Made by a program: the position numbers and the translations under genes
Assembly (NCBI RefSeq): GCF_000522985.1
Contig: NZ_CP007128.1
Location: 2,464,220-2,528,219 of the forward strand
Source of the DNA: Gemmatirosa kalamazoonensis
GTDB taxonomy: Bacteria; Gemmatimonadota; Gemmatimonadetes; Gemmatimonadales; Gemmatimonadaceae
Reading direction: 5' to 3'
Length of the DNA stretch: 64,000 nt
The notes under the pieces: generated by a model
What the model was told of the DNA's origin: nothing
Seen by the model: the letters and a program-made list of their open reading frames with translations, nothing else
Databases searched by the model: none
Shown here: positions 41,453-62,083 of the stretch, piece after piece
How the letters are laid out: each line of letters starts with the position of its first letter
Position numbering within the stretch: the first letter of the stretch is position 1

Positions 41453-44425
41453 ATGCTCGCTCTGCTCGTCTGCCTGCTGCTCGCACCATCCGCGGCACCC
41501 GCCGGCGAGCCGCCGCGCGCCGTGGTGCGCGCCGCGACCCGTGCCGTGGAAGGCGACAGCGCGACGCGACTCGGCGCGCAGTGGAGCGCACGCGTGGCGC
41601 GCGACTCCGGCGACCGCGCGGCGGTCCTCGGCGTCGCGACGCTCGCGCGGCTGCGCTACGACTATCCGACGTCCGAGCGGCTGTATCGCCGACTCGATGC
41701 GGGGCCCGCGGACGGCTACGCGCTGTATGCGCGGCTCGGCCTCGGCGAGGGCCTCGAGGAGCGGCGCTTCACGCCCGCCGCGGTGGCCGAGTTCACGCGC
41801 GCCCGCGCGCTCGCGCGCACCCTGCGTGACGACGGCGCGGCGGCGCACGCGCTCGTGTGGCTCGCGTCCTCGCGCGGCAAGACGGAGGGGCTCGACGTCC
41901 TCGGGGCGCTGCTCGACACGACCGCGCGGCTCGTGCCCGACTCCGCGTTCGACGTGCGCGCGCTGCTCGACATCCGCCGCGGACTGCTGTACGCGCTGCG
42001 CGGTCGTCCGCGCGAGGCGCAGGCCACGGTCGATTCGGGCATCGCGCTCGCGCGGCGGGCACACGCGCTCCGCATCGAGGGCGACGGCTATCTGTCGCTC
42101 GCCAAGGTGCTGCTGCTGCACAACGCGCCGTTCGACTCGGGGCTCGTGGCCGCGCATCGGTCCGCGGCGCTGTACGAGCAGGCGCACGCGAACGGCGCGC
42201 TCGCCAACTCGCTGATCTGGCACTCGTACGCGCTCGAGTCGCTGGGACGATACGCCGAGATGCGCGAGGTCGCGCGGCGCGCGCTCGCCGAGGGCGAGGC
42301 GACGCATGCCCCGTCCGCCGTCGCCGACGCGCACCGCCTCATGGGCCTCCTCGCGATCAACTTCGGCGACTGGGCCGCCGCGGCCCAACACCTCGATCGC
42401 GCGGCGGCGCTGTCGCTCGCCACGGGCGACACCGTGAATCTCCTGCTCACGCGGAAGTTCCAGGGGTTCGCCGCGCTCGCCGGCGGCGACACGGCGCGCG
42501 CCCGACGGCTGGCGACGGAGCGACTCGTCTGGTCGCGCCGCGCGCAGGACTTCAACGGCATCTTCGAGTCGCAGCGCGTCCTCGCCGCGGTCGCGCAGCG
42601 GGAGCGTGACTGGACGGCGGCGGCGAGCGCGCTCGCCGCCGCGCGCGCGCAGCTCCCGCGGCTCCCGGGCGCGGACTACCGCGACGAGATCACCGACGAC
42701 GAGGCGCGGCTCGCCGTCGCGCGCGGCGACCTCGCCACGGCCGAGCGTGCACTGCAGCAGTACATCCGGAACCTCGCCGTCGCGCCCGGCGATCCGACCG
42801 AGACCGACTTCGTCGGGTTCGACGTGCGCATCCGCCTCGCCGACGTGCACGCGCGGCGGAACGACGTCGCGCGCGCGGAAGCGGAGATGGCCGCCGCGCT
42901 CGACGACGTGGAGCATCTGCGCGCGCGACTGAGCGACACCGAGCTGCGGACGCTCGCCTTCCAGCGGGCGCACGTGTTCTCGGCGGCCGCGGAGCCGCAC
43001 GGGTTGGAGGACGCGTGGGCGCGCGCGCTCGGCGCGATCGTCGGCGGCGGGCGCGCGATCGCCGCCTTCGACCTCGCGGAGCGCTGGCGCGCGCGCGAGC
43101 TCATGGACCGTCTCGACCGCGCCGACGCGCTCCGCGCCGCCGCGCCGGCCGTCGCGCGCGCGGACACCGCGCGCCACGTCGCCGCGCGCTCGCTGCGCGC
43201 CGTCGACGTCGCGGCGGCGCTCCCCGACGACCGCACGGCGCTGCTCGCGTACGTCGGCGGCGCGGGCGCGCCGCTCACCGTGTTCGTGGTGCGGCGCGAC
43301 GGCGTGCGCGCGCGGGTGCTGCCGCCGGTCGACTCGCTCGCCGACCGCGTGACGCGCTTCGGCCGGCTGCTGGAGAGCGGCGTCGACGCGGCGCGGCTCG
43401 GCCGGACGTTAGGCGCGGCGCTGCTCGACCCGGCGATGCCGCTGCTCGACGCGCGCGTCACGCGGCTCGTCGTGGTGCCCGACGGGCCGCTGCACCGGCT
43501 GCCGTTCGACGCGCTGCGGCTGGCCGACGGGCACCTCGCCGTGGAGCGGTGGGCGTTCGGCGTCGCCCCCTCCGCGTCGGTGGTGGCCACGCTCTGGCAG
43601 CGGAGCGGCAGAGAGGCGCGCGCGACGCGCGTCGTGCGCGCGGCGGCACCGGCGGCACCCGCGGCGGCGCCGCTGCTCGCGTTAGGCAACCCGACGGTCC
43701 GCCTGTCGCGGGCGTCGGCCGGCGGGGCGGCGGAGGAGACGTATCGCGACGCGTTCGACGCGTCGGGCGGGCTGCCGCCGCTCCGCGGTGCCGAGCGCGA
43801 GGTGGCGCTCGTGGCGCGCTACTCGCCGTCGGCCGACGTGCGCGTCGGCGACGCGGCGAGCGCGCTGTTCCTGAAGCGCGCCGACCTCCGGCGCTATCGG
43901 GTGCTGCACTTCGCCACGCACGCCGTCGTCGACGAGCGCTCGGCGGCGCGCACGGCGCTCGCGCTCGCACCCGGCGGCGGCGAGAGCGGCTTCGTCGGAC
44001 CGGGCGACCTCGCCGCGCTGCGCCTCGACGCCGACCTCGTGGTGCTCTCCGCGTGCCGCTCGGCCGGCGGCGTCGTCGTCGGCGGGGAAGGGATCCAGGG
44101 ACTCACCGCGCCGTTCCTCGAGGCGGGGGCGCGCTCGCTCGTGGCCACCGAGTGGCGCATCCGCGACCAGGGCGCCGTGCCGTTCGTCGACGCGTTCTAC
44201 GCGGCGCTCGCGCGCGGCCTCCCGGTGGCCGACGCCCTGCGCGTGGCGAAGCTCGACGCGGTGCGGCGCGGCGAGCCGCCGCGCACGTGGGCGGCGTTCG
44301 TCGCCGTGGGGGACCCGCTCGTCACGGTGCCGCTGAAGACGCCGGCGGGCGGGGTCTGGGCCGGGCTCGTGCAGCGCGTGATGAACGCGTTCGCCACGCC
44401 GGGCCGCGGCGGCGCGCCGCGTTAG
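41453..44425 (+). CDS. Secreted TPR-CHAT protease-like protein
   Basis: The protein has 990 aa. The signal peptide MLALLVCLLLAPSAAPAGEP is followed by about 550 residues of TPR-like helices (ALVWLASSRGKTEGLDVL and so on). The C-terminal CHAT domain (about 600-960) contains the caspase-like dyad His823 in LHFATHAVVDER and Cys868 in LSACRSAGG, followed by GEGIQGLTAPFLEAGARSLV. The dyad is intact, so a peptidase activity is plausible. CHAT proteins often sit in effector systems, but no partner is seen here. The stop TAG is within CGTTAGGC and shares bases with the stop of the convergent chrA. Confidence 0.9.
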   Translation: MLALLVCLLLAPSAAPAGEPPRAVVRAATRAVEGDSATRLGAQWSARVARDSGDRAAVLGVATLARLRYDYPTSERLYRRLDAGPADGYALYARLGLGEGLEERRFTPAAVAEFTRARALARTLRDDGAAAHALVWLASSRGKTEGLDVLGALLDTTARLVPDSAFDVRALLDIRRGLLYALRGRPREAQATVDSGIALARRAHALRIEGDGYLSLAKVLLLHNAPFDSGLVAAHRSAALYEQAHANGALANSLIWHSYALESLGRYAEMREVARRALAEGEATHAPSAVADAHRLMGLLAINFGDWAAAAQHLDRAAALSLATGDTVNLLLTRKFQGFAALAGGDTARARRLATERLVWSRRAQDFNGIFESQRVLAAVAQRERDWTAAASALAAARAQLPRLPGADYRDEITDDEARLAVARGDLATAERALQQYIRNLAVAPGDPTETDFVGFDVRIRLADVHARRNDVARAEAEMAAALDDVEHLRARLSDTELRTLAFQRAHVFSAAAEPHGLEDAWARALGAIVGGGRAIAAFDLAERWRARELMDRLDRADALRAAAPAVARADTARHVAARSLRAVDVAAALPDDRTALLAYVGGAGAPLTVFVVRRDGVRARVLPPVDSLADRVTRFGRLLESGVDAARLGRTLGAALLDPAMPLLDARVTRLVVVPDGPLHRLPFDALRLADGHLAVERWAFGVAPSASVVATLWQRSGREARATRVVRAAAPAAPAAAPLLALGNPTVRLSRASAGGAAEETYRDAFDASGGLPPLRGAEREVALVARYSPSADVRVGDAASALFLKRADLRRYRVLHFATHAVVDERSAARTALALAPGGGESGFVGPGDLAALRLDADLVVLSACRSAGGVVVGGEGIQGLTAPFLEAGARSLVATEWRIRDQGAVPFVDAFYAALARGLPVADALRVAKLDAVRRGEPPRTWAAFVAVGDPLVTVPLKTPAGGVWAGLVQRVMNAFATPGRGGAPR

Positions 44426-54926: not shown

Positions 54927-55344
54927 CCTTGCGCGTCCGCACCAGCAGCGCGCCGTTCGCGCAGCGGCACGAGTTGCCGTAGTCGTACCAGGCGTCGCGC
55001 GGCTGCGCGAACCGGATCTCACGGACCTCGGAGAGGGGGACCGTGTTCAGCAGCGACACGTCGCCCGCGTACACGCCGTCGACGTAGACGGCGATCTCCG
55101 GGCGACTCGAGAAGCCAAGCGCGCGAGTGGAGCCGTGCAGGAAATGCGGGCGCAGGTGACGCACCGCGTCGAGCGTGAGCATGTCGCTCGACGTCGCGAT
55201 CTCCGATGCGGTCAGCACCTCGAAGTCGAGCGGCGCCCGCCGCGCGCGGGTGCCGGCGCTCGACGTTCGCTCGTAGCCGCTCGTCGTCGCGCACGCGGTG
55301 GCGACGAGAGCGAGGCACAGTCCACGGATCACGGGCGCACGCAT
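54916..55344 (-). CDS. Small lipoprotein with TonB-receptor plug-like domain
   Basis: The protein has 142 aa. The lipobox is LVATAC near residue 17. The mature part has DFEVLTASEIATSSDMLTLD, VRHLRPHFLHGSTRALG, IAVYVDGVYAGDVSLLNTVP and LSEVREIRFAQPRDAWYDYG. This is the compact plug-like unit often seen in Gemmatimonadota lipoproteins (VYVDGV followed by EVREIRF). The function is unknown; a role at the outer membrane is inferred from the plug similarity. It is divergent from the first ADOP gene across 226 nt. Confidence 0.8.
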   Translation of the reverse strand: MRAPVIRGLCLALVATACATTSGYERTSSAGTRARRAPLDFEVLTASEIATSSDMLTLDAVRHLRPHFLHGSTRALGFSSRPEIAVYVDGVYAGDVSLLNTVPLSEVREIRFAQPRDAWYDYGNSCRCANGALLVRTRKARE

Positions 55345-55518
55345 CGGAACCTCCGCGAGGAAGTCATTCGGACGGTCGATCGGATCACACCGAGCGAGCA
55401 ACCGAACCGCGGCGCCTGCGGTCCTTCTGCTTCGTAGACACTTCTCCCTACGGCGACGTTGGGTATGCGCGCGCGTGGATGTGACGAACGGATCCAACGA
55501 TCGTCGTCCGGCGGCCTC

Positions 55519-55548
55519 TCCCCTTGTGCTTCTACAAGAGCGGTCGTA
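55519..55548 (+). promoter_or_regulatory. Putative PadR operator upstream of ADOP gene 1
   Basis: A 30-nt block is shared at 27 of 30 positions with 59010-59039. The core is CTTGTGCTTCTACAAG (55523-55538), with inverted CTTGT/ACAAG half-sites. It lies 22 nt before the ADOP start. The other copy precedes a padR gene, so PadR binding is the best guess. Confidence 0.7.
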
Positions 55549-55570
55549 TGCTTGGCGCGAGGACACCATC

Positions 55571-58273
55571 ATGCTGAGCGAGATCTGGAGCGACGTGCGC
55601 TACCGCCTGCGCGCGCTGTTCGACCGCGACGCGCTCGAGCGCGAGCTGGACGCGGAGCTGCGCTTTCATCTGGAGCGCGAGGCCGAGCGCCTCGAGCGCG
55701 CCGGGCTGTCCCGCGACGACGCAATGCGGCGCGCGCGCGCCGAGTTCGGGCGGGTCGACCGCGTGAAGGAGGCGAGCCGCCGCGCGCGCGGCACCGTGGC
55801 GCTGGAGTCCGTGCTGCACGACCTCCGCATCTCGGTGCGCGCGCTGTCCGCGAGCCGCGGGTTCACGCTCGGCGTCGTGCTCACGTTCGCGCTGGGCATC
55901 GGCGTGAACACGACGATGTTCGGCGTCGTCGACCGGCTGCTGCTGCGGCCACCGCCGTTCCTGCGCGACGTGCCGCGCGTGCACCGCGTGTACATGAAGA
56001 GCGTACGCGACGGCGTGGAGCGCACCCACGACGCGACGTCGATCGCGCGATACCTCGACCTGCAGCGCGGCAACCACACGCTGTCCTCGCTCGTCGCGTT
56101 CGACACCTGGCACGTGGCGGTCGGCGAGGGCGAGGCGACGCGCGAGCTGCCGGTCGCCGCGGTGAGCGGGGGCTTCTTCGCGCTGTTCGACGCGCGGCCC
56201 GCGCTCGGCCGCTTCATCACCCCGCAGGACGACCGCATGCCCACGGGCACGCCGGTCGTCGTGCTCGGCGACGCGTACTGGCGCGCCGCGCTCGGCGCGC
56301 GGCGCGACGTGCTGGGCCGGCAGCTGCGCGTCGGCCGCATGCTGTTCACGGTCGTCGGCGTCGCACCGCCGGGGTTCGTCGGGCTCGGCGACGGCGAGGT
56401 GCCGGCGATGTACACGCCGCTCGCCGCGTTCGCCTGGAACGCGCGCCCCGAGGACCACACGCGCGACTACCACTGGCAGTGGCCGCAGCTGCTCGCCACG
56501 CGCGCGCCCGGTGTCGACGTCGCGACCGCGCAGGCCGACCTCACGGCGGCCCTCGCGCGGAGCTGGCTCGCGCGCAACGCCGTCGAGCCGAGCGGCGCGT
56601 CGCCGGTGCAGGCCGCGCGGCCGCGCGTCATCCTCGGCCCGGTGCAGGCGAGCCGCGGCCCCGCGGCCGGCCCCGAGTCGAAGGTCGCGCTGTGGGTGAG
56701 CGGCGTCGCGGTCGTCGTGCTGCTCGTCGCGTGCGCGAACGTCGCGAACCTCCTGCTCGCGCGCGGCATGGCGCGCCGCCGCGAGATCGCGCTGCGCCTC
56801 GCGATCGGCGTGAGCCGCGGCCGGCTCGTGCGGCACCTCGTCACGGAGAGCGCGCTGCTCGCCGCGGCGGGCGGCGTCGTGGCGCTCGTCGTCGCGCGCT
56901 GGGGCGGCACCGCCGTGCGCGCGCTGTTCCTGCCTAACGATCTCTCCGGTCCCGGGCTCGGCGACGGACGGACCCTGCTCGCCACGCTCGCCGCCACCGC
57001 GGCGGCCGCGCTCGCGGCGGGGCTCGCGCCGGCGCTGCAGGCGCTGCGCTCCGACGTGTCGGACGCGCTGCGCGCGGGCGGGCGCGACGCGGACGCGCGG
57101 CCGTCGCGCGCGCGCGCGGTGCTGCTGGTCTTCCAGGCCACGCTGTCGGTCGTGCTGCTCGTCGGCGCGGGGCTGTTCGTGCGCAGCCTGCACAACGTGC
57201 AGCGCGTCCGGCTCGGCTTCGACGTGGAGCCGGTGCTCGTCGTGAGCGAGTTCATGCGCGGCGTCCAGCTTTCCGTCCCGGAGCGCGTGCGGCTGGAGCA
57301 GCGCCTCGTCGACGCGGCGCGCGCGATACCGGGCGTCGTGAGCGCGAGCCCCGCGCCGACGGTGCCGTTCTGGGGCTTCGAGGGGCGGCCGCTGTTCGTC
57401 GCGGGCATCGACAGCGTGTCGCGGCTCGGCGACTTCACGCTACAGGCGGGGAACGCCGACTACTTCCGCACGCTCGGCACGCGCATCGTGCGCGGCCGCG
57501 CGTTCGCGGCGACCGACGACCGTGCCGACGGTCCGCCCGTGACGATCGTGAGCGCGGGGATGGCGCGCGCGCTGTGGCCGGGGCGTGATCCGATCGGACG
57601 CTGCGTGCGCATCGGGGCGGACACCGCGCCGTGCGCCACCGTCATCGGCGTGGCGGAGGACATCCGACTCGACTCGTTCAACGACCCGCGCGAGTACAGC
57701 TACTACGTGCCCATCGCGCAGTACGACTTCGGCGCGGCGGGCATGGCACTGGTGCGTCTCTCCGGCGAGGCGGCCGGTCGCGCCGAGTCGGTACGACGCG
57801 CGCTGCAGCGCGTGATGCCGGGCGACGCGTACGTGACGGTGGTGCCGATGCGCGAGATGGTCGCGCCGCGCATGCGGAGCTGGCGCGTCGGCGCGACGAT
57901 GTTCGTCGCGCTGGGCGGCCTGGCCCTCGCCATCGCCGGGATCGGCCTGTACGGGCTGATCGCGTACGGCGTCGCGCAGCGGCGGCGCGAGATCGGTGTG
58001 CGCGTCGCGCTCGGTGCGTCGCGTGCGCACGTGCTCGCGCTGGTGGCGCGCGGGCCGGTGCGGCTCGTCGCCGCGGGCGTGGTGCTCGGCGGGGCGATCG
58101 CGCTCGGCGTCGCGCGCGGCGTGACGGGGCTGCTGTTCCGCGAGTCGCCGGCCGATCCGCTCGTGTACGCGGCGGTGGCGCTCGTGCTGCTCGCGGTGTC
58201 GCTCGTCGCGGCCGCGGTGCCGGCGCGCGCGGCATCGCGCGTGGAGCCGACGATCGCGCTGCGGTCGGACTGA
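55571..58273 (+). CDS. ADOP-family ABC transporter permease (MacB-like FtsX domains)
   Basis: The protein has 900 aa. The permease-prefix domain at the N-terminus (MLSEIWSDVRYRLRALFDRD to about residue 80) is almost identical to that of the protein at 59390-62083. Then come a first transmembrane helix (TLGVVLTFALGIGVNTTMFG), a large MacB periplasmic core domain, three helices (ALWVSGVAVVVLLVACANVA), a second core and the C-terminal FtsX domain (LALAIAGIGLYGLIAYGVAQRRREIGVRVALG). ADOP proteins are duplicated FtsX permeases common in Acidobacteriota and Gemmatimonadota, with unknown substrates. No ATPase gene is next to it. Confidence 0.92.
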   Translation: MLSEIWSDVRYRLRALFDRDALERELDAELRFHLEREAERLERAGLSRDDAMRRARAEFGRVDRVKEASRRARGTVALESVLHDLRISVRALSASRGFTLGVVLTFALGIGVNTTMFGVVDRLLLRPPPFLRDVPRVHRVYMKSVRDGVERTHDATSIARYLDLQRGNHTLSSLVAFDTWHVAVGEGEATRELPVAAVSGGFFALFDARPALGRFITPQDDRMPTGTPVVVLGDAYWRAALGARRDVLGRQLRVGRMLFTVVGVAPPGFVGLGDGEVPAMYTPLAAFAWNARPEDHTRDYHWQWPQLLATRAPGVDVATAQADLTAALARSWLARNAVEPSGASPVQAARPRVILGPVQASRGPAAGPESKVALWVSGVAVVVLLVACANVANLLLARGMARRREIALRLAIGVSRGRLVRHLVTESALLAAAGGVVALVVARWGGTAVRALFLPNDLSGPGLGDGRTLLATLAATAAAALAAGLAPALQALRSDVSDALRAGGRDADARPSRARAVLLVFQATLSVVLLVGAGLFVRSLHNVQRVRLGFDVEPVLVVSEFMRGVQLSVPERVRLEQRLVDAARAIPGVVSASPAPTVPFWGFEGRPLFVAGIDSVSRLGDFTLQAGNADYFRTLGTRIVRGRAFAATDDRADGPPVTIVSAGMARALWPGRDPIGRCVRIGADTAPCATVIGVAEDIRLDSFNDPREYSYYVPIAQYDFGAAGMALVRLSGEAAGRAESVRRALQRVMPGDAYVTVVPMREMVAPRMRSWRVGATMFVALGGLALAIAGIGLYGLIAYGVAQRRREIGVRVALGASRAHVLALVARGPVRLVAAGVVLGGAIALGVARGVTGLLFRESPADPLVYAAVALVLLAVSLVAAAVPARAASRVEPTIALRSD

Positions 58274-58305
58274 CGACGCGACGAGAGGTACTGCGACGCG
58301 GGCGC

Positions 58306-58335
58306 TTGACACTAGGTGTTGCAACATCTAGTGTC
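58306..58335 (+). promoter_or_regulatory. Promoter with a 28-bp palindromic operator before the WrbA-like gene
   Basis: A near-perfect palindrome spans 58308-58335. The arms GACACTAG and CTAGTGTC flank a centre of GTGTTGCAACAT, with only one unpaired position per half. TTGACA (58306-58311) and a TAGTGT at 17-nt spacing give a plausible sigma-70-like promoter overlapping it. Repressor binding (MarR-like) would block transcription of the gene at 58376. Confidence 0.75.
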
Positions 58336-58375
58336 CGTGGCCTGAAGTCGTCAACCTCGTCGCCGGAGCGCGCGC

Positions 58376-58990
58376 ATGGCCAACGTCCGCCTGACCATCG
58401 TCTACTACAGCACCTATGGCACCAACCTCGAGATGGCGAGCATCGCCGCCGACGCCGCGAAGGACGCCGGCGCCGAGGTCCGCCTGCGCAGGGTCCGCGA
58501 GACCGCGCCCGAGGAGGTCGTGCAGGGCGTCGAGCCGTGGCGCGCGACCGCGGAGCGCATGGCGCACGTGCCGGAGGTGACGAACGACGACATGGAGTGG
58601 GGGAACGCGTATCTGTTCAGCGCTCCCACGCGCTACGGCGTGTCGGCCAGCCAGCTCCGCGCGTGGATCGACACGTTAGGCCCGCTCTGGCAGCGCGGCG
58701 TGCTGGCGAACAAGGCGGTGAGCGCGATGTCGAGCGCGATGAACCCGCACGGTGGGCAGGAGACGACGCTGCTGTCGCTCTACGTCACGATGATGCACTG
58801 GGGCGCGATCATCGTCCCGCCGGGCTACACCGATCCCGTGCAGTTCAAGGCCGGCGGCAACCCGTACGGCGTGACGGTCACCGCGGGCGGGCAGGGGATT
58901 CCCGACGAGGTGAAGGACGCGATCCGCTTCCAGGCGCGTCGGCTCGTGGAGTTCGCGGGGAAGCTCGCCGGCGAGCCGGTCGCCGTGTGA
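58376..58990 (+). CDS. wrbA: NAD(P)H:quinone oxidoreductase type IV (WrbA-like flavodoxin)
   Basis: The protein has 204 aa. The FMN-binding loop [20 protein letters not shown] at the N-terminus (S/T-rich P-loop) is followed by [40 protein letters not shown] and [20 protein letters not shown], the WrbA family motifs. WrbA reduces quinones by two electrons to protect against redox stress. The length fits. Transcription is probably controlled by the palindrome at 58306-58335. The gene stands alone between the ADOP 1 and padR genes. Confidence 0.92.
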
Positions 58991-59009
58991 CCGCACACGG
59001 GTCGGCGCT

Positions 59010-59039
59010 TCCCCTTGCGCTTCTACAAGAGAGGCCGTA
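59010..59039 (+). promoter_or_regulatory. Putative PadR operator upstream of the padR-ADOP 2 pair
   Basis: This is the second copy of the 30-nt block, with core CTTGCGCTTCTACAAG (59014-59029). It ends 10 nt before the padR ATG at 59050, as expected for autoregulation. Only three positions differ from 55519-55548. Confidence 0.7.
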
Positions 59040-59049
59040 GCGTCTCGGC

Positions 59050-59382
59050 ATGACCGACGACCGGCTCGATCTGCCGCAGGGGACGCTCGACCTGTTGATC
59101 CTGAAAGCCGTCTCGCTCGAGCCGACGCACGGCTGGGCGATCTCCGAGCGCATCCGGCAGGTCTCGCGCGAGGCGCTGCAGGTGCCGCAGGGATCGCTCT
59201 ACCCAGCGCTGCATCGCCTCGAGCGCCGCGGCTGGATCCGCGCCGAGTGGGGCACGTCGGAGGCGAACCGCAAGGCGAAGTACTACGAGCTCACGCGCGC
59301 CGGCCGCAAACGGCTCGACGCGGAGACCGACGCGTGGGCGCGGCTCACCAGCGCCGTGGCGCTCGTGCTCGACATGGGCTGA
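59050..59382 (+). CDS. PadR family transcriptional regulator
   Basis: The protein has 110 aa, typical of small PadR proteins. It opens LPQGTLDLLILKAVSLEPTH and has the winged-helix signature GWAISERIRQVSREALQVPQ, GSLYPALHRLERRGWIRAEW and YYELTRAGRKRLDAE. PadR proteins repress transport or stress genes. The ADOP 2 permease starts 7 nt after the stop, so the two are one operon. The operator-like block upstream is shared with ADOP 1, so it may control both permeases. Confidence 0.93.
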   Translation: MTDDRLDLPQGTLDLLILKAVSLEPTHGWAISERIRQVSREALQVPQGSLYPALHRLERRGWIRAEWGTSEANRKAKYYELTRAGRKRLDAETDAWARLTSAVALVLDMG

Positions 59383-59389
59383 CGGCGCG

Positions 59390-62083
59390 ATGCTGAGCGA
59401 GCTGTGGAGCGACGTGCGCTACCGGCTGCGCGCGCTGTTCGACCGCGACGCGCTCGAGCGCGAGCTGGACGCCGAGCTGCGCTTCCATCTCGACCGCGAG
59501 GCGGAACGACACGAGCGCGCCGGCCTCTCGCGCGACGACGCGCTGCGGCGCGCGCGCGCCGAGTTCGGGCGGCTCGACCGCGTGAAGGAGGCGAGCCGCC
59601 GCGCACGCGGCACCGTGGCGCTCGAGTCGGCGCTGCAGGACCTCCGCGTCGCGACGCGCCGGCTCCGGCGCGCGCCCGGCTTCGTCGCGGCGGCGGTGCT
59701 CGTGCTCGCGTTAGGCATCGGCGCCACCACGGCGACGTTCAGCCTCGTGAACGCGGTGCTGCTCGAGCCACTGCCGTACCCGCGCGCCGATCGCCTCGTG
59801 CGGCTCACGCAGACGGCGAGCCTCCCCGGCCTGTCGACGGTGGACCAGTCCGACGCGAGCGTGATGCTGTATCAGCGCGACGCCGCGTCGTTCGAGGGGA
59901 TCGCCGCGTGGTGGAGCGACAACGTGGACGCCGACATCGAGCCGTCCGCGCCGAGCCAGGCGCCGGCGCGGGTGCAGATCGCGCGCGTCACGGCGAACCT
60001 GCTCGACGTGCTCCGCGTGCGTCCCGCGATCGGCCGCGGCTTCGCGCCCGGCGAGGACCGGGCCGGTGCGCCGCGCGTGATCCTGCTGTCGGACCGCCTG
60101 TGGCGCGAGCGCTATCACGGCGACCCGCACGCGATCGGTCGGCGCATCCTCGTGAACGAGGTGCCGCGCACGATCGTCGGTGTCATGCCGCGGGGCTTCG
60201 GCTATCCGGCGAGCACCGTCGATCTGTGGATCCCGCTGACGTGGGACCCGGCGAACGTGCGCGCGGGACGCTTCGCGTACGTCGCCATCGGCCGACTCCG
60301 TGACGGCGTATCGACGGACCGCGCGCGCGCGGACCTGGCCCGCGTGCTCACGCGGCTCCCGGACGAGTACCCGGGCGACGCGTCGGCGGCGATGCTCGCG
60401 CGTGCGCACGTGGTGCCGAGCGTCGAGCCGCTCCGCGACTCCATCGTCGGCCCCGTCGCGCGGCTCATCTGGGTGCTGATGGCGAGCGCGCTGCTCGTGC
60501 TCGTCGTCGCGGGCGCGAACGTCGCGGGGCTGTTCCTCGTGCGCGCCGAGCACGCGCAGGCGGAGCTGGCGGTGCGTGCCGCGCTCGGCTCCGGCGCCCG
60601 CCGCCTCGTCGCGCAGTCGTTAGGCGAGGCGGCGCTGCTCGGCGCCGCTGGCGGCGCGCTCGGCGTGGTGCTCGCCGTCCTCGGCGTGAAGGCGGCGGTG
60701 CGCGCCGGCGACACCTGGGCGCTGCCGCGCCTCGACGAGGTCGGCGTCGATCCGCGCACGCTGTCGTTCGCGCTCGCCGCCACGGTGCTGTGTGCGCTCT
60801 GCGTCAGTCTGCTGCCGCTGCTGCGTGCGCGGCGCGTGCCGATCGCGCTCGTGCTGCGCAGCGCGGGCCGCGGTACGGCCGCGGACCCGTCGCGCCAGCG
60901 GGCGCGCGACGCGCTCGTCGTCGCGCAGACGGCGCTCGCCCTCGTGCTCGTCGCCTCGTCGGGGCTCATGGCGCGCAGCGTCGTGCGGCTGGAGCGCGTG
61001 CAGCCGGGCTTCGTGCCGGACGACGTCGCCGTCGCGCACGTGCTGCTCCCGGCCGCGAAGTACACCACGGGCCCGATGCGCGCACGCTTCCTCCGCGACG
61101 CGCTGGACCGACTGCGCGCCGCGCCGGGTGTGCGCGACGCGGGCATCACCGACCGCGTGCCGCTCGGCACCGACGGCTGGCGCGCGACGATCGAGGTGGA
61201 GGACCGCCCACTGCCGCCGGACGCGGCGGGCGCCACGCATCCCGCGGCGACGGTCGACGGCGACTACTTCGGCACGATGCGCATCCCGCTGCTGCGCGGG
61301 CGATCGTTCGGGCCGATGGACGAGCCGCACACCGCGGAGGACGTGGTCGTGAGCCACGCGTTCGCGCTCCGCTACTGGAACGGCGCGAGCCCCGTCGGCA
61401 AGCGGATCCGGCCGGTGGGCGGCACCTGGCTCACGATCGTCGGCGAGGTGGGCGACGTGCACTACGACGCGCTCGACCGGCCGGCAGGCGACGTGGTGTA
61501 CTTCCCGTTCGTCGAGCGGGAGGGCGACGGCTCGGTGCCGTACGGCGTCGCGGTGCTCGCCCGCACGGAGCCGGGCCGCGCGCCCGCGACGGTCGCCGCC
61601 ATCCGCGACATCGTGCGCGCGCTCGACCCGGCGCTGCCGACGTTCGGCGAGGAGACGCTCGACGACGCGGTGCGTCGCGCGTCGGCGCGGGCGCGCGCGC
61701 TGGTCGTGCTGCTCGCGGTGGCGAGCGTCGTCGCGCTCACGCTCGGCGCCGTGGGTCTCTACGGCGTGGTGGCGTACGCGGTGAGCGTGCGTCGTCGAGA
61801 GATCGGTGTGCGCATCGCGCTCGGCGCGCGCCCCGCGGACGTGAGCCGGGCAGTGTCGCTGCACGGCCTGCGGCTCGCCGCCGTCGGCGTGGCGATCGGG
61901 CTGGCGGGCGCGCTCGTCTTCACGCGGCTGCTGCGCGGCCTGCTCTACGAGGTGAGCGCGACCGATCCGTGGGTGCTGGGGCTCACGATCGTCGCGCTGC
62001 TCGCCGTGGCGCTCGTCGCGAGCTGGCTGCCCGCGCGTCGCGCCGCCGCCGTGAATCCGGCCGAGGTGCTGGGCGCGGGGTGA
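59390..62083 (+). CDS. ADOP-family ABC transporter permease, second copy
   Basis: The protein has 897 aa. The domain plan is the same as for 55571-58273: permease-prefix (MLSELWSDVRYRLRALFDRD), first helix (FVAAAVLVLALGIGATTATF), MacB core, central helices (LIWVLMASALLVLVVAGANV), second core, C-terminal FtsX (LGAVGLYGVVAYAVSVRRREIGVRIALG). Outside the first 80 residues the two copies are quite diverged, so they are old paralogues with a homogenised N-terminus, and they are likely to have different roles. It is co-transcribed with padR. Confidence 0.92.
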   Translation: MLSELWSDVRYRLRALFDRDALERELDAELRFHLDREAERHERAGLSRDDALRRARAEFGRLDRVKEASRRARGTVALESALQDLRVATRRLRRAPGFVAAAVLVLALGIGATTATFSLVNAVLLEPLPYPRADRLVRLTQTASLPGLSTVDQSDASVMLYQRDAASFEGIAAWWSDNVDADIEPSAPSQAPARVQIARVTANLLDVLRVRPAIGRGFAPGEDRAGAPRVILLSDRLWRERYHGDPHAIGRRILVNEVPRTIVGVMPRGFGYPASTVDLWIPLTWDPANVRAGRFAYVAIGRLRDGVSTDRARADLARVLTRLPDEYPGDASAAMLARAHVVPSVEPLRDSIVGPVARLIWVLMASALLVLVVAGANVAGLFLVRAEHAQAELAVRAALGSGARRLVAQSLGEAALLGAAGGALGVVLAVLGVKAAVRAGDTWALPRLDEVGVDPRTLSFALAATVLCALCVSLLPLLRARRVPIALVLRSAGRGTAADPSRQRARDALVVAQTALALVLVASSGLMARSVVRLERVQPGFVPDDVAVAHVLLPAAKYTTGPMRARFLRDALDRLRAAPGVRDAGITDRVPLGTDGWRATIEVEDRPLPPDAAGATHPAATVDGDYFGTMRIPLLRGRSFGPMDEPHTAEDVVVSHAFALRYWNGASPVGKRIRPVGGTWLTIVGEVGDVHYDALDRPAGDVVYFPFVEREGDGSVPYGVAVLARTEPGRAPATVAAIRDIVRALDPALPTFGEETLDDAVRRASARARALVVLLAVASVVALTLGAVGLYGVVAYAVSVRRREIGVRIALGARPADVSRAVSLHGLRLAAVGVAIGLAGALVFTRLLRGLLYEVSATDPWVLGLTIVALLAVALVASWLPARRAAAVNPAEVLGAG

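Follow-up and report, generated by a model that had tools for sequence, protein, structure and literature searches.

The wrbA locus and its promoter dyad

The genome of Gemmatirosa kalamazoonensis comprises 7.48 Mb in four contigs, and the window, by which we mean the whole stretch of 64,000 nucleotides that was analysed (C2:2464220-2528219), lies on the 5.31-Mb contig. Within it, wrbA is flanked by two large MacB/FtsX-type permease genes (55298-58273 and the 59050-62083 region), and a gene for a PadR regulator (TIGR03433 type) comes before the second of these. The features of the wrbA promoter region are given below.

58306..58311, + strand: -35 hexamer TTGACA, overlapping the left arm of the dyad, at the same offset as in 25 of 29 marR promoters
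58308..58335, no strand: 28-bp dyad, proposed MarR operator, 26.4 bits with the matrix described below (next value in the window, 4.2 bits)
58329..58334, + strand: proposed -10 element TAGTGT, 17 nt after the -35 hexamer, overlapping the right arm of the dyad
58376..58990, + strand: wrbA, NAD(P)H:quinone oxidoreductase type IV, 204 aa, above the cut-offs of TIGR01755 and NF002999

A previous sequence-only reading of this DNA had described a large, nearly perfect palindrome in the promoter of a gene for a WrbA-like protein. The identity of the protein was confirmed: it matched TIGR01755 at full length (residues 4-197) with 152 bits against an equivalog cut-off of 132.5, and it exceeded the cut-offs of NF002999 and Pfam FMN_red. 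The dyad, GACACTAGGTGTTGCAACATCTAGTGTC, has the arms (GACACTAG and CTAGTGTC) and the centre (TTGCAA) that had been reported, with 13 of its 14 pairs matched. Its reported span, 58306-58335, was right at the far end and needs correction at the near one, because the dyad starts at 58308, and it is TTGACA that begins at 58306. The low GC content (46%, vs. 74.7% in the 600 bp flanks), the TTGACA-type promoter beneath the dyad and the 40 nt between the end of the dyad and the ATG of wrbA likewise agreed with that description. A conserved 18-bp core element, TAGGTGTTGCAACATCTA, occupies positions 58313-58330 inside the dyad. A strict sigma-70 promoter scan did not call the wrbA promoter, because the proposed -10 element matches TATAAT at only 3 of 6 positions.

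Palindromy alone is no proof of function, because the 64-kb window contains two palindromes of 28 bp in which 13 or more of the 14 pairs match, compared with 0.44 expected under a first-order Markov model. The other one, at 42616-42643, is GC-rich. The significance of the dyad rests on its letters and its position in the promoter and not on the length of the palindrome.

A MarR regulator and candidate operator sites in the same genome

To search the genome for MarR proteins, we used as the query a MarR protein from a family locus carrying the element. There were 15 matches, three of which are clear members of the same group. The closest is the following gene.

C2:880391-880852, - strand: MarR1, MarR-family regulator gene (PF01047)

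MarR1 is located on the same chromosome as wrbA, approximately 1.64 Mb away, and none of the 15 whole-genome matches falls inside the window, as the sequence-only reading had stated for its supposed repressor gene. MarR1 matched Pfam MarR (PF01047) with 35.9 bits, the gathering score being 24.6, while its best NCBIfam match, HpaR (TIGR02337), reached 47.7 bits, far under the cut-off of 121.2. The other two members of the group are MarR2 (C3:798355) and MarR3 (C3:633086). MarR2 appears to be served by a variant element of its own, of the CGTTATCACG type, with several copies near the gene (L073, 1736-1753, 2279, 5699 and 5779; C3).

The dyad had also been proposed as a key for finding the regulon. 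As a strict AT-rich key (ACTAGNTGTNNNNACANCTAGT), it failed: with 2 mismatches or fewer it matched nothing else in the genome, and 3 mismatches added a single match (L002). When it was relaxed (TAGNTGTTRYAACANCTA, up to 3 mismatches), it became useful, and further copies appeared, including one before MarR1 itself. The six sites found with the relaxed pattern were the following.

wrbA promoter: 0 mismatches
FMN reductase gene beside MarR1: 2 mismatches
11 bp before the start of MarR1: 2 mismatches
DoxX gene, followed by a VOC gene: 2 mismatches
C3:802278: 2 mismatches; 24.4 bits, near a second dyad of the MarR2 type
MarR2 promoter: 3 mismatches

The number of these sites was below that for the reversed-pattern control (6 vs. 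30); therefore, we gave weight instead to where the sites lie and to the composite pattern described below. The site at the FMN reductase is a stretch, TATGTGTTGCAACAGATA, between the stop codon of MarR1 and the NADPH-FMN reductase gene, and its core, TGTTGCAACA, is also the core of the wrbA site. At the primary sites of the FMN reductase and DoxX genes in this genome, TTGACA is not found at the offset seen in marR promoters. In the DoxX promoter (C2:937013-937044; L072, 2514-2545), two operator-like sites, offset by 14 bp, overlap and score 28.0 and 26.5 bits, with TTGCTA at the -35 offset of the second site; this pairing suggests that binding there may be in tandem. No recognised related gene was found beside C2:3041929, a composite match with one mismatch.

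Conservation of the proposed operator in marR promoters of the family

A search of the family with a loose key found elements in the same frame, usually with the core TGTTATAACA and often beside MarR, DoxX and VOC genes. Three of the matches were not counted as support: L005 and L006 lie inside open reading frames and L009 lies before an open reading frame outside the named target set. Homologs of MarR1 (E <=1e-12) were present in 121 of the 178 family genomes, and the best 30 MarR loci of the family were selected for the analysis of orthologue promoters. Cys66, which lies where the helix-turn-helix region begins, was invariant in all 30 orthologues (alignment A1). The core was found upstream of marR with at least 7 of 8 positions matched at 28 of the 30 loci, compared with 121 of 6000 shuffles. 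A palindrome scan that used no motif, applied to 27 of the 30 loci (L042, L054 and L068 were left out), also recovered dyads with the TGTTATAACA core near -28 in many of them.

The promoters were then compared in register, leaving out L052, for which the best match did not fit the register. Allowing no more than one mismatch, TTGACA occurred at one and the same offset in 25 of the 29 promoters and at 13 other offsets in none. Because there is a single offset for TTGACA, the 18-bp operator takes up the whole 17-bp spacer and reaches into the -10 element. The layout at wrbA is identical, with TTGACA from 58306, the operator at 58313-58330 and TAGTGT from 58329, so that here, too, the operator covers the 17-bp spacer together with the start of the -10 element, in register with the promoters of the MarR1 orthologues.

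We also built a matrix from 28 sites of other genomes, from which the site of this genome was left out. The training sites themselves had a lowest score of 20.8 bits and a median of 29.0, and the wrbA site, at 26.4 bits, falls within their range; the next-best value in the window was only 4.2 bits, and no match of at least 22 bits was found in 20 Mb of random sequence. In a looser scan of the family, 11 of 14 distinct sites were located at MarR, DoxX, VOC, WrbA or pirin genes, and the other three (L074, L076 and L084) were located in or at other open reading frames with no such start adjoining. The pirin gene, in one family genome, has an element with the TGTTGCAACA core just before its start (L077, 1501-1518).

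Exact promoter-operator composites across the phylum

The exact composite of promoter and operator, TTGACANNNNNTGTTRYAACANNTA, was searched for in 395 genomes of the phylum. It was found at 30 sites in 27 genomes, compared with 0 for the reversed control among the matches listed. The genes following these sites encode MarR proteins in 25 cases, DoxX-like proteins in 2, YceI in 2 and WrbA in 1, the last being the gene of the window itself. The pattern was derived from the marR promoters of one family, and for this reason the 15 sites outside the source family are the fairer test; these lie before MarR (12), YceI (2) and DoxX (1) genes. At many of the MarR sites a DoxX gene comes next, with a VOC gene too in several; at L197, MarR is followed by DoxX and FMN reductase. 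The YceI genes with an exact composite promoter-operator are found in other families of the phylum (L172 and L192). YceI proteins bind isoprenoids.

The element at wrbA itself is not conserved. The related WrbA genes in named records belong to Gemmatimonadetes/Gemmatimonadaceae. The element TGTTNNAACA was found within 150 bp at none of 80 other WrbA loci, at least one of which (L135) has less than 150 bp of upstream sequence, and it was not seen before wrbA in the six relatives examined, including relatives of approximately 72% identity. Thus, the membership of wrbA in the MarR regulon looks lineage-specific and may be the result of a recent recruitment. Coincidence is a less likely explanation, because the promoter geometry at wrbA is exact.

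Proposed regulation of wrbA by MarR1

Taken together, these results make it highly probable (roughly 0.85) that the dyad is the operator of MarR1, which would control wrbA together with other detoxification genes. A MarR-type repressor sensing quinones or oxidants had been called likely in the sequence-only reading, and the MarR-type reading is now supported at the sequence level: in the genome's own MarR1 the element lies before the start, as it does in the adjacent FMN reductase gene, and it also precedes the MarR1 orthologues of the family and of the phylum, with the promoter arranged identically. The putative operator of MarR1, an 18-bp element that lies in its own promoter as well, has the size expected of MarR-family operators, which are palindromes of 16-20 bp. 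A MarR dimer on the wrbA site would block RNA polymerase, and a quinone-like or other electrophilic compound would release MarR1, either because it occupies the ligand pocket or because it modifies the invariant Cys66. The wrbA gene would then be expressed together with the FMN reductase and the DoxX/VOC operon, and this set would reduce or cleave the inducing compound. The set of predicted targets, including WrbA, FMN reductase, DoxX, a VOC protein of the glyoxalase or ring-cleavage kind, YceI and one pirin, fits a role in the detoxification of quinones and electrophiles, from which we infer a quinone-type inducer. Counting against the MarR1 reading are the lack of conservation at wrbA, the relaxed-site count below that of its control, the missing TTGACA offset at the primary FMN reductase and DoxX sites of this genome and the presence of two MarR paralogues.

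The dyad could also have arisen by chance, or serve as a terminator for the permease gene ending at 58273, and the rate of 0.44 such palindromes per 64 kb makes the former conceivable; however, there is no terminator-like site in 58200-59100, and the matrix score and promoter geometry agree with an independent set of sites, which leaves this explanation with almost no weight. It is scarcely more plausible that the dyad is bound by the neighbouring PadR regulator (59050-59382), which is encoded by the nearest regulator gene and is a member of TIGR03433, given that the operator was not found in the promoter of padR itself, the matrix giving no second value above 4.2 bits in the window, and that in other genomes the element tracks marR genes and not padR. 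Whether the site is read by MarR2 or MarR3 instead of MarR1, or by several of them, deserves more attention, as both paralogues belong to the group of MarR1 and a related element is arranged in the same way in the MarR2 promoter (TTGACA, N17, TATCCT). However, the core differs in the MarR2 element (CGTTATCACA, 16.5 bits), which has more CGTTATCACG copies nearby, while the core of the wrbA site is identical to that of the FMN reductase site adjoining MarR1, and no element of the operator type was seen before MarR3; accordingly, we consider this unlikely.

There is a substantial chance, though well short of even, that the operator is correctly assigned but that, in place of a quinone, MarR1 responds to a peroxide, a catabolic aromatic acid or some other xenobiotic. 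The best NCBIfam match of MarR1, HpaR, points in this direction, although its 47.7 bits are to be read against a cut-off of 121.2, and many ligands are sensed by MarR proteins (PMC10458429). On the other hand, the predicted targets are reductases and DoxX, VOC and YceI genes and include no catabolic pathway.

With MarR1 as the preferred regulator of wrbA, a broader proposal can be put forward tentatively, and we would regard it as a speculation worth stating more than as an expectation: Gemmatimonadota may possess an undescribed electrophile-stress regulon, governed by a Cys66-containing MarR group through the operator TAGGTGTTRYAACACCTA in the -35/-10 spacer, with marR-doxX-VOC, FMN reductase, YceI and pirin genes as targets and wrbA as a new recruit in this lineage, in which Cys66, near the DNA-binding helices, would act as a one-cysteine switch. 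No paper on such a regulon was found among the matches listed in a search of the open-access literature, a scope that most subscription journals fall outside. The analysis supplies a testable operator, regulator and set of targets for a stress regulon in a phylum of which few members have been cultured. The operator embedded in the promoter is specific enough for targets to be predicted from sequence, because all 30 exact composites in 395 genomes front the same small set of genes, and wrbA is a clear example of apparent capture, in which a gene that gained an operator came under a regulon already in place.

Comparison with known systems

WrbA itself is a full-length member of its family, above the equivalog cut-off; its distinguishing feature here is the candidate MarR operator, which none of the 80 other WrbA loci has. 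The closest solved relative by sequence is PDB 3u2r (Regulatory protein MarR), which is not an established orthologue. HpaR, the homoprotocatechuate regulator, is the best NCBIfam relative of MarR1, but MarR1 lies far below the curated cut-off, and no hpa genes were seen at the sites.

The closest known systems include quinone regulators of Bacillus and Staphylococcus. MhqR of Bacillus subtilis and Staphylococcus aureus (PMC6798810, PMC12893000) is likewise a MarR-type repressor whose promoter site is a 9-9 bp inverted repeat, and it targets quinone and azo reductases and ring-cleavage dioxygenases or glyoxalases, to which WrbA, FMN_red, DoxX and Glyoxalase correspond here by family only. However, the MhqR operator given in PMC6798810, TATCTCGAA-aTCGAaATA, is unlike TAGGTGTTRYAACACCTA, and the letters of the wrbA site differ from it; in S. 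aureus it overlaps the transcription start, whereas the MarR1-type operator fills the -35/-10 spacer. According to the same papers (PMC6798810, PMC12893000), S. aureus MhqR binds the quinone in a pocket and uses no thiol, whereas the MarR1 group has the invariant Cys66; because sensing in a pocket can proceed without a thiol, both routes are kept for MarR1. YodB/CatR and QsrR (MarR/DUF24; PMC6798810, PMC10458429) have similar target classes, and cysteine sensing as in these proteins is possible for MarR1 too; they nevertheless belong to the DUF24/HxlR subgroup and have their sensing cysteine near the N-terminus (Cys5-7), whereas MarR1 has Cys66 and matches Pfam MarR. MarR1 is not classed as MhqR because its operator differs, but by analogy the system would work like MhqR and YodB/CatR, within the MarR family.
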